Source: a virus
Length of the DNA: 22,326 nt
Virus record (IMG/VR): IMGVR_UViG_3300050035_000081
Coordinates: 1 to 22,326 of that record
Direction: 5' to 3' (one strand)
The position numbers were made by a program, and so were the translations under genes. This document shows, one piece after another, positions 505-14,206 of this stretch. The notes beneath the pieces were generated by a model. It saw only the letters and a list, made by a program, of their open reading frames with translations, had not been told where the DNA came from and made no database searches. How positions within the stretch are numbered: position 1 is the first letter of the stretch; every line of letters starts with the position of its first letter.

Positions 505-585
505 GGCATCCTCGATTGGTTAGCGGAATATTGCGATTTAACTTTGTTATGTTATCACACGCATATCATTAATGTATGCAGATTG

Positions 586-740
586 ACACGCCCCGCCGCT
601 AACGCGATAGGGATTCTTGCTTCACCGTCGTTTGCCTCAAAAGGTCTTACATCGACTCCACGAGCGTTTAACGTCTCCGTGTGCCCCACGGCGACAATAC
701 TGCATTCTGGTCTGACTCGGCGGACTTGGTTTTCGCCCAC
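586..740 (-). pseudogene. C-terminal remnant of a TnpB-like RNA-guided nuclease
   Basis: The minus-strand frame from about 740 down reads GENQVRRVRPECSIVAVGHTE, then TLNARGVDVRP and GEARIPIALAAG. The AVGHTETLNARG..VRP string followed by an EARIP-type end is how many TnpB proteins finish after their zinc ribbon. The RuvC-like catalytic residues and the zinc ribbon cysteines are missing; only about 50 residues remain and no ribosome site precedes the ATG at 740. In tnpB elements the 3' end of the gene plus the right-end hairpin also encodes the omega RNA scaffold, so the piece kept here is the RNA-coding piece rather than the enzyme. A purely non-coding remnant is equally possible. Confidence 0.55.
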
Positions 741-813
741 GGTGCGTGAGTCTCGATGCAGACACCCACCTTGCGATGGGCGACACGGATGAGATCACCT
801 CATCACAAGGACT

Positions 814-842
814 ATGATACCATACCTTGACGCGCCTGTCAA
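814..842 (-). promoter_or_regulatory. Sigma70-type promoter upstream of the tnpB/omega-RNA-like remnant
   Basis: On the minus strand TTGACA (842-837) and TATCAT (819-814) are separated by exactly 17 nt. Transcription would start near 807 and run through the tnpB remnant and the terminal hairpin towards the DUF4054 gene. A short inverted repeat (GATGAG...CTCATC, about 788-804) lies at the start of the transcript. Confidence 0.6.
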
Positions 843-886
843 GGGCTAACTACGACAACGGACACTATATGTGTCGGGCGAATTCA

Positions 887-912
887 CCCCCACTGCTAAA
901 GCAGGGGGTTTT
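887..912 (+). terminator. Hairpin followed by T-run on the plus strand; also the outer hairpin of the IS remnant
   Basis: CCCCC-A-CTGC, loop TAAA, GCAGGGGG then TTTT and CTTC. On the plus strand this has the form of an intrinsic terminator; on the minus strand it is a G/C hairpin with a CTTTAG apex like the other IS-type hairpins in the window. Which role matters cannot be told from sequence. Confidence 0.5.
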
Positions 913-12013: not shown

Positions 12014-14206
12014 TTATGCAGAATACCGATACTGTTCGATATATGTTTTCACAACGTAGCGGCTACAATCCATCACATGGTCATTACTTTTGATAGGTTG
12101 TTCCGTTCCAGCCTTCGCAGCTTTCTCATCCCATGCGTAACCTGTCAATTCCTGTTTATACATTTTACACCTATCACGATGAATCTTAATTTTACGCTTT
12201 CTATACAATACAGAACTTGCTAAAATACCCTCTAACACATCGTTGTTAGCCTTTTCTAATATTATACCACGATTCCTACACGCAGCGAATAAAGGGGTAG
12301 CAGAAGGGTCTGCCGCCACTCTAACGCCGTCACTAATCGTGTCTCTTGCAATAAATTCTTTTAAGTCTTCAGCATACTCTCCAGGATCTTTTTGCTTGCG
12401 CATATGTTTCTTATCTTTTGAATTATAATAATATTCATCGTCAAAATAAATACAATCGCCAGTATCGTATGCGTTAAGAAACACTGTAGGATTATTGGTT
12501 CCAAAGTCAATACCTATTAACCTGCGCGATATGTACTCTAACCCCTGCGGCCTTGTTTCGTCGTCATAAAAGTTTTCTTCGTTGATCTCGCTATATATCA
12601 GACCTTCCGCAGAACATCTTTCACCGAGAATAAACCGTTTGTAATAAAAACCTGAATACTGAGCTTTTACTTCTTGCTTTCGATCTTCCGTGAGAGCTAA
12701 GTTATCATCTAATAGAAACCTAAATATTCTAAAACCAGGAGTATTGTTTTGCTCATAAGGGTCAAGGTAGTCTGTATAAATAAAATGGTTTGGATCTCCG
12801 GGGTTTAAAGTCCATAGATGTCGCCTGTCCTTCGAGACAAGTGTACGGTTGAAAGCTTCAATAATAAAGGCTTCATCATGAGTATTTATCTCATCGGCAT
12901 ACCATCCCCCCGCAGTTATACCGCGTATCGTACTGTAACTACGAGCATCATTTGCACCAAATAGATAGACTTTCTTTACTACCCCAGGAGCTACAGTAAC
13001 TTCCACTATTCTATTACCGTACTTATCACCTTTTTCTTGCGCTAACGGGCCAAGCATGGCTAAAAAACCATAATTACCACCTAATACGTTTCTATATAAA
13101 GAACCTCTCGATTTTCCACTCATGATAAAAGTCGTGTCAGGAGACTCACATAGATAGTTAAACCAAGCTATTTGACTAGCAATAGTCTTTCCTGAATTAT
13201 GATTCACGATACCATTAGCGATATAATTCTCATATACAGGAACATGTAAATCGTAGTAATAATTAGTTTTTACATACTTGATAGACTTGACATTTTCCAT
13301 CTTTATGTTATAATTGTGTGTTGCTATATTTTCAGCACACAATATACTACTGTAAGGAACATTAACAGACGGCTCGCACGTTTTACAGTTTTGCAGAAGA
13401 TGCAAAAATAAGGAAGCTAATCTCTGAAGGTTGGTACTCCGTAGATATTGCCCGAGAAATCGGCAGAACTCAAGGTGCTGTGAAAAGATATTGCTTCCGC
13501 AATGGCATAAAAATGATGCCAAACACGTGTCCACCCGGCCCCCGTGGCCCAAACTGGAAGCGTGGTTATACGATAGACAAGGATGGATACAAGCTGTCTC
13601 GGAGTAAAGACCATCCTCGTGCTCGACGTGGTTATGTTTTTGAGCACAGACTTGTAATGGAAAAACATTTAGGACGATACCTTCTACCTGATGAAGTGGT
13701 TCACCATAAAGATGGAGACAATTCAAACAATTCATTAGATAATCTTGAATTATTTGCAACGAATGCCGAACATCTACATTGCGAATTGGCTGGTAAGTGT
13801 CCACAGTGGTCTGATGAAGGCAAGCGGAATATTTCCGCCTCGACTCGTCGTATGAATCATGATCGCGCTGAAAAGAAGAGACATCTTGCCACCCTGTTGG
13901 CGTTAAAAACCGATGACCAGCAGACACAGTAATCTTTTTACCCGACACTGTAGTTACTTCATATAAATCTACGATAGACTTTCTATAGGCAGCGCTAGCC
14001 TCTGCAACAACAAGTTCATTGCCGTTGTATGCTAGCACATGGCCTCCCTTAAAATCCCTAGCCTTAATGTGCTCATCTTCGACAGGATCATAGATAAGGG
14101 TGTCACCGTCGATGCACCTCACCGCCCCCTCTAACACGGTTAAAAACCCCTTGCATTCCAGCACATCTAACGCCTTATCGCTTAAGTCATAAAAATCAAT
14201 CGCCAT
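12014..14206 (-). CDS. terL: Terminase large subunit precursor, interrupted by an intein
   Basis: 730 codons. After removal of the intein (residues 31-337) the joined protein is 423 residues, a normal PBSX-like TerL. The splice restores Walker A as LEGAVR + SGKT. Walker B is GGWYADEIN (D438, E439), followed by a coupling motif in LWTLNPGDPNH. The nuclease domain has acidic residues in IGIDFGTNN (D567), AADPSA (D633) and DHVMDC (D713). The protein is the packaging motor ATPase and headful or cos nuclease. Packaging needs splicing, because the P-loop is split between the two exteins. No small terminase subunit is recognisable nearby. ATG 14206 has only a weak ribosome site and follows a highly structured leader. 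Confidence 0.93.
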   Translation of the reverse strand: MAIDFYDLSDKALDVLECKGFLTVLEGAVRCIDGDTLIYDPVEDEHIKARDFKGGHVLAYNGNELVVAEASAAYRKSIVDLYEVTTVSGKKITVSAGHRFLTPTGWQDVSSFQRDHDSYDESRRKYSACLHQTTVDTYQPIRNVDVRHSLQIIQDYLMNCLNCLHLYGEPLHQVEGIVLNVFPLQVCAQKHNHVEHEDGLYSETACIHPCLSYNHASSLGHGGRVDTCLASFLCHCGSNIFSQHLEFCRFLGQYLRSTNLQRLASLFLHLLQNCKTCEPSVNVPYSSILCAENIATHNYNIKMENVKSIKYVKTNYYYDLHVPVYENYIANGIVNHNSGKTIASQIAWFNYLCESPDTTFIMSGKSRGSLYRNVLGGNYGFLAMLGPLAQEKGDKYGNRIVEVTVAPGVVKKVYLFGANDARSYSTIRGITAGGWYADEINTHDEAFIIEAFNRTLVSKDRRHLWTLNPGDPNHFIYTDYLDPYEQNNTPGFRIFRFLLDDNLALTEDRKQEVKAQYSGFYYKRFILGERCSAEGLIYSEINEENFYDDETRPQGLEYISRRLIGIDFGTNNPTVFLNAYDTGDCIYFDDEYYYNSKDKKHMRKQKDPGEYAEDLKEFIARDTISDGVRVAADPSATPLFAACRNRGIILEKANNDVLEGILASSVLYRKRKIKIHRDRCKMYKQELTGYAWDEKAAKAGTEQPIKSNDHVMDCSRYVVKTYIEQYRYSA
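13321..13348 (+). promoter_or_regulatory. Candidate promoter for the antisense HNH gene
   Basis: TTGCTA (13321-13326), 16-nt spacer, TATACT (13343-13348) on the plus strand, inside the sequence that encodes the intein just before block F on the other strand. A TAAGGAAC ribosome-site-like string follows at 13352-13359. Spacing and hexamers are acceptable but not perfect. Confidence 0.45.
13480..13932 (+). CDS. HNH homing endonuclease encoded antisense within the intein
   Basis: From GTG 13480 the frame gives 150 residues with a clear HNH domain: RGYVFEHRLVMEKHLGRYL, then PDEVVHHKDGDNSNNSLDN and LELFATNAEHL. H75-H76, D78, N84 and N88 are the expected catalytic and structural residues, followed by a KCPQWSDEGKR tail. 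The frame is open further upstream to 13366 and there encodes AKIRKLISEGWYSVDIAREI then GRTQGAVKRY, a helix-turn-helix that GTG 13480 would cut in two, so the true start is probably upstream. No in-frame ATG, GTG or TTG exists there; see findings. The gene runs opposite to terminase and ends at 13932 inside sequence encoding intein block B. Its likely target is an intein-less terL allele. Confidence 0.85.
   Translation: MKRYCFRNGIKMMPNTCPPGPRGPNWKRGYTIDKDGYKLSRSKDHPRARRGYVFEHRLVMEKHLGRYLLPDEVVHHKDGDNSNNSLDNLELFATNAEHLHCELAGKCPQWSDEGKRNISASTRRMNHDRAEKKRHLATLLALKTDDQQTQ

Follow-up and report, generated by a model that had tools for sequence, protein, structure and literature searches.

The PATEs of Haloquadratum walsbyi are transposase-free elements, some of which arose through core deletion of IS605 elements (PMC3119063). 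A PATE-like element of about 271 nt in Halanaerobium hydrogeniformans combines 28 nt of the left end (LE) with the last 58 nt of tnpB and the whole right end (RE), as described in the relevant passages of PMC7290912. For ISDra2, the RNA partner of TnpB (reRNA, or omegaRNA) is drawn from the tnpB 3' end and the right end and runs on into flanking DNA as guide; it measures ~150 nt and ends with ~16 nt of this flanking DNA (PMC8612924). In ISDra2, tnpB is present, expression and cutting are proven, and the TAM is TTGAT (PMC8612924). TnpB also accepts reRNA from a separate plasmid, and the proposal is that it cleaves the empty donor site beside the TAM and thereby favours retention of the element (PMC8612924). 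Furthermore, TnpB trims its own RNA (PMC10278001), guide RNAs acting in trans were suggested for a frameshifted tldR locus, and TldR-gRNA cassettes are carried by phages (PMC13418256).

Here we describe a comparable locus in an incomplete viral IMG/VR record of 22,326 bases, analysed over its full length (the window). Its minus strand carries an IS200/IS605 element of ~330 nt (918-583) with an internal deletion, flanked by a DUF4054 head gene (67-504, minus) and by a gene for a two-domain glycosyltransferase (1084-2757, minus); the region has a G+C content of 54% against 43-45% in the surroundings. We read it, with a probability of roughly 0.78, as a non-autonomous (PATE-like) element caught between two phage genes and most likely a passenger today. 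Like PATEs, it carries IS605-like near-terminal palindromes and is too short for a transposase. With the H. hydrogeniformans element it shares the LE hairpin, the lack of tnpA, the tnpB 3' end and the whole RE, whereas that element resides in a bacterial chromosome together with IS605 copies (relevant passages of PMC7290912, which do not discuss an omegaRNA or a promoter). The H. walsbyi PATEs likewise possess near-terminal palindromes resembling those of IS605 elements, but they are archaeal, multicopy and in some cases shrunk to ~52 bp (PMC3119063). Thus, the layout as such is already known (PMC3119063; for the PATE-like element, passages of PMC7290912), and the points of interest here are the phage location, the promoter-like site and an omegaRNA scaffold that can be scored.

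Ends and interior of the element

Read along the minus strand from 918 to 583, the LE hairpin is followed by the promoter-like site, ~115 nt without match, the last TnpB codons, GAAT, the RE hairpin and GTGTCAA, after which phage DNA resumes. Both ends, the scaffold, the promoter match and the absence of tnpA and tnpB are shown by the analysis, and the features are as follows:

878-918, minus: left end (LE), read directly; a DNA fold gives an inner and an outer stem
814-842, minus: promoter-like site, TTGACA (842-837), 17 nt, TATCAT (819-814), with extended -10
698-813, minus: segment between promoter and omegaRNA, without homology, presumed remains of the deleted interior
600-697, minus: last TnpB codons, frame ..VAVGHTETLNARGVDVRPFEANDGEARIPIAL, open without a stop into flanking DNA
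583-693, minus: omegaRNA (reRNA) scaffold, from covariance models R1 and R2 and from pair counts
583-616, minus: right end (RE), with GAAT foot (616-613), hairpin (612-591) and terminal TCAA (586-583)
563-582, minus: flanking phage DNA in guide position, TCTGCATACATTAATGATAT, directly past the transposon end as in IS200/IS605 reRNAs (PMC8612924)

The LE hairpin, CCCCCTGC-TTTA-GCAGTGGGGG (908-887, minus), has an intact stem, a 5' foot AAAA (912-909) and an outer stem in which GTGAA (918-914) pairs with TTCGC (882-878), a layout common to the window and to the LEs of the viral loci L014, L024, L030 and L033. This hairpin was not named in an earlier note on the same DNA and is newly added here, so that both transposon ends are present. 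The RE hairpin, CCCTATCGC-GTTA-GCGGCGGGG (612-591, minus), contains one A-C mismatch and two wobbles, and the element ends with GTGTCAA (589-583, minus); its layout recurs in the 15 viral stretches considered below and in a Butyrivibrio IS200/IS605 element. The subterminal hairpins and their tetranucleotide feet (AAAA at the LE, GAAT together with the TCAA end at the RE) therefore match those of intact relatives. None of the motifs TTAT, TTAC, TTGAT and TTAA occurs within 50 nt ahead of the LE hairpin on its 5' side, whereas L024, L030, L032 and L033 have TTAT or TTAC 16-29 nt ahead of theirs, a foot AAAA going with TTAT and AAAG with TTAC. Because a TTAT/TTAC-type target motif is absent there, the left boundary is undefined, and the element is, as a consequence, probably immobile.

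The promoter-like site matches the sigma-70-like consensus at 11 of 12 positions and has a TG before the -10; when the element was simulated with a Markov model, 0.03% of the runs gave an 11/12 site on the minus strand, in a test chosen after the site had been seen. A perfect 7-bp dyad, CCTTGAC (844-838)/GTCAAGG (831-825) on the minus strand, overlaps the -35 and is a possible operator, although dyads of such size are not rare by chance. The interior segment (698-813) matched nothing in blastn against all fetched elements or in Pfam searches of three frames. A 13-bp inverted repeat (676-688/777-789) was considered as a long-range stem and rejected, as it competes with the covarying scaffold stem P1 (see below); it probably reflects the near-palindromic nature of P1.

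Of tnpB only the last codons are left. Their frame, ..VAVGHTETLNARGVDVRPFEANDGEARIPIAL, matches the ends of intact TnpB proteins from L024 (VAAGHAETLNACGAQVRP..VKQES) and L033 (VGHTGINACGHRVR..GEARIPCL*), and the expected TnpB stop is lost, so that the frame reads through. No tnpA/Y1 transposase ORF occurs in or next to the element, the 22-kb record holds neither a transposase ORF nor a TnpB zinc ribbon (PF07282), and the longest minus-strand ORF of the element, with 61 aa, is too short for a transposase. The TnpB-end peptide itself found no Pfam match and no match in peptide-based scans of viral and genome collections, and tblastn against plasmids and phages gave chance matches only.

The earlier note had proposed that the enzyme is gone while a promoter, the right end and the 3' part that encodes the RNA remain, and this structural reading is supported; its suggestion that such an RNA may work with a host TnpB is doubtful (see below). 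The TTGACA-17-TATCAT promoter on the minus strand and the TnpB C-terminal codons are borne out by the 11/12 match with extended -10 and by the L024 and L033 protein ends, respectively; the terminal hairpin (612-591) and GTGTCAA (589-583) are present, and the sequence in guide position, including its near-palindrome, is as described there. This near-palindrome, GCATACATTAATGATATGC (561-579), adjoins the RE within the guide position, occurs once in the window and may be an older phage regulatory site.

The omegaRNA scaffold, here and in other viral records

Strict LE and RE patterns failed as a route to relatives, as neither viral nor genome collections gave an exact match. When the element was compared with 7.3 Gb of plasmids by permissive blastn, with no pattern selection, the search placed its core inside a Thermaerobacter IS607-type tnpB (E 2e-4) and weakly recovered the RE of the Butyrivibrio element, which carries TnpA and TnpB (E 0.09). 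An RE pattern, AAGCAAGAATCCC..TTAG..GTGTCAA, led to 15 viral stretches, and in nearly all of them the block upstream of the RE begins with a hairpin whose loop is GGGCA or GGACA, continues with GCTTGTGGA and ends in a GTAAGAC-like sequence. Since this block is coding in some relatives and lies past the tnpB stop in others, the conserved thing is an RNA. The nearest full-length relative is L024 (IMGVR_UViG_3300045912_000463), a viral contig with 72% identity over 124 nt; it has the closest scaffold and the same RE and LE layout as the window, but differs in possessing TnpA and TnpB ORFs and a TTTAT motif at its left end. The searches brought up no highly identical element that could be its direct parent. 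The element is present once in the 22-kb record, and no copy was seen in the other collections searched; a single copy in an incomplete record does not prove mobility.

The scaffold shares sequence with the 3' end of tnpB and finishes where the transposon ends, directly ahead of the guide position. Stems P1 (CCGTG, 691-687; loop GGGCA; CACGG, 681-677) and P3 (GTCG, 656-653/CGAC, 630-627) are intact in the window, P2 (GCTC, 665-662/AAGC, 622-619) keeps three of four pairs with one C-A mismatch, and the scaffold motif GCTCGTGGA occupies 665-657 (minus). To avoid circularity, the core-only covariance model R1 was derived from 14 relatives, leaving out both the window and the sequence that had served to find them, and it covers the block upstream of the latter. 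Its match in the window spans 609-693, minus (44.4 bits, E 3e-13). That of R2, the model of the full scaffold, spans 583-693, minus (74.8 bits, E 7.8e-19), where part of the score stems from the RE that was used to pick the relatives; several intact or near-intact relatives score 76.7-86.6 bits. In the 15-sequence alignment, 94% of cells are paired, while shuffles reach 82% and the controls with slid partners 33-44%, and the covariation score is 0.335 against 0.129 in shuffles. Furthermore, nearly all positions invariant among the relatives are kept in the window, despite 28% divergence from the nearest one. Hence two of the refuting conditions in the earlier note do not hold, since a covariance model matches and a related full-length element exists, namely L024 with its TnpA and TnpB. 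Rfam returned no relevant match for the window or a close-up of it; this silence is uninformative, because the omegaRNAs of intact IS605 elements, run as a control, were likewise unmatched. The IscB HEARO model RF02033 had no match in the window. A single-sequence fold of the whole RNA, made without homologs, was not informative either (z 0.18).

TnpB elements are usually counted via their enzyme, so that loci consisting of a guide RNA only go unseen, and the scaffold model obtained here finds such loci in viral genomes. When R2 was run on the viral records from which the loci came, 35 omegaRNA loci turned up in 15 records; in 19 of the loci a TnpB zinc ribbon lies no more than 400 nt upstream, and in 16 there is none. 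These records were picked by the RE pattern, so that the fractions do not amount to a census, and some of the records may be other than pure phage. One of the 19 is L032, but the zinc ribbon 286 nt from it belongs to the neighbouring element, and the split is thus, if anything, 18 to 17; in the examined records, loci without TnpB are nearly as many as those with it. Both kinds can share a genome: a 220-kb record (G010, IMGVR_UViG_3300037502_002993, with L028 and L038-L041) carries eight omegaRNA loci, all of the same strand, of which four have a TnpB and four lack it, and one full locus beside one TnpB-less locus is the count for the record G009 and for the contig that holds L027 and L029. L032 and L041 are compact LE-omegaRNA-RE units without a TnpB of their own, and L039 has the same order with the first ~26 tnpB codons kept between LE and scaffold. 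As in the window, these three lie in viral records, lack TnpB and have an LE closely followed by a full scaffold and RE; they differ in that full TnpB elements occur in the same record, and the interior of the window is found in none of them. At some TnpB-less right ends (L043, L044, L045) the scaffold is partly or wholly lost, and with loss or damage in about 4 of the 10 other TnpB-less right ends, retention is frequent but not universal.

Three viral loci showed further peculiarities. In L019 (1925-2372) and L018 (1361-1805), which lie in two contigs of the viral collection, a TnpB-type omegaRNA block leads directly into CRISPR-like repeats of 29-32 nt, spaced by ~61 nt and set behind leader-like sequence. 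In L029 (4385-6468, minus), a HEARO RNA and an IscB-like ORF stand just upstream of a TnpB-type omegaRNA and RE, without TnpB; this may be an IscB element whose right end is of the TnpB type.

Passenger, decay or guide RNA in trans

The origin, transcription and any use in trans of the element are matters that we infer. A deletion would have taken tnpA and nearly all of tnpB, halting just before the 5' edge of the scaffold and leaving the LE, the promoter, the omegaRNA scaffold and the RE. Most likely, the element either arrived as a mini-element moved by a TnpA in trans or inserted at full length and lost its interior later. It is now unable to move by itself, and it no longer shows a recognisable left target motif. 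The missing left motif, the ~115 unmatched nt, the imperfect RE hairpin, the broken P2 pair and the lack of a close parent speak against our main reading. If the promoter is active, it would yield an omegaRNA of ~225 nt plus guide, a predicted transcript with everything needed bar TnpB. With a cognate TnpB in the cell, this RNA would direct the cutting of element-free copies of the site, and the element would be kept.

A simpler account, towards which we lean slightly, is plain decay: a full IS605 element inserted, lost its interior and is eroding, with promoter and scaffold as inactive leftovers, which overlaps the passenger part of our main reading. The absent left target motif, the imperfect RE hairpin, the lost TnpB stop and an interior without identity to anything agree with it, but the LE stem, P1 and P3 are intact, and the positions invariant among relatives have nearly all survived the 28% divergence. 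Recent decay would still be compatible with this retention.

It is doubtful, in our view, that the locus encodes a functional omegaRNA acting in trans, which the phage transcribes from 842-814 and which a TnpB from the host or a co-resident IS605 element trims and loads, so that the complex cuts element-free copies of the locus (TAM plus TCTGCATACATTAATG) and confers an advantage over sister phages lacking the element. The good promoter-like site with its extended -10, a scaffold score near those of several relatives and the coexistence of TnpB-less and full copies in G010 (four and four) and G009 (one and one) would suit such a role, as would the acceptance of plasmid-borne reRNA by TnpB (PMC8612924) and the trans guides suggested for the tldR locus (PMC13418256). 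Yet TnpB is absent from the record, no TAM plus 16-nt guide match was found in viral contigs, and the scaffold is lost or damaged at the ~4/10 other TnpB-less right ends noted above. For this locus, a passive passenger is more likely than an omegaRNA working in trans. Similarly, the broader idea that elements reduced to their omegaRNA and carried by phages make up a class of guide RNAs acting in trans, with scaffold and promoter kept by selection, TnpB borrowed from host or co-resident transposons and the complex turned on element-free genomes, seems to us improbable, though if such use occurs, one TnpB could serve many guides, a step from transposon nucleases toward CRISPR-like systems. If it does not, these loci amount to no more than transposon debris of the ordinary kind, and for the locus described here this is more likely.

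Far less probable is a domesticated guide RNA for a nuclease-dead, TldR-like TnpB, with repression of a promoter in the host or a phage to which the guide is matched: TldR-gRNA cassettes do occur in phages (PMC13418256), but the record has no tldR or tnpB gene, and the guide is simply the DNA adjoining the RE, intergenic in the phage and with no target identified. That the LE hairpin does no more than terminate plus-strand transcription of the phage, and that the scaffold match is a product of chance, is scarcely credible, for although TTTTCTT follows the hairpin on the plus strand, the terminator scan did not report it, its TTTA loop, AAAA foot and outer stem fit IS605 LEs, and the covariance search (E 3e-13 to 8e-19) refutes a chance match.

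The rest of the record

The record encodes head genes, a portal, an intein-bearing terminase and a tyrosine integrase; portal, terminase and integrase each share less than 45% identity with named records, and Bacillota is our guess for the host. The glycosyltransferase next to the element (1084-2757, minus), with a GT7-like N part and a GT4-like C part, is inserted among the head genes and is a probable moron. In the terminase large subunit (13195-14116, minus), an intein (PF14890) sits at the Walker A motif, and opposite its middle an HNH_3 protein (E 7.5e-11) is encoded on the plus strand (13480-13932), with a 12/12 promoter, TTGACA-16-TATAAT, at 13287 on the strand of the HNH_3 gene. It is unusual for an intein to harbour a homing endonuclease gene in antisense orientation while its own sense frame is kept open.
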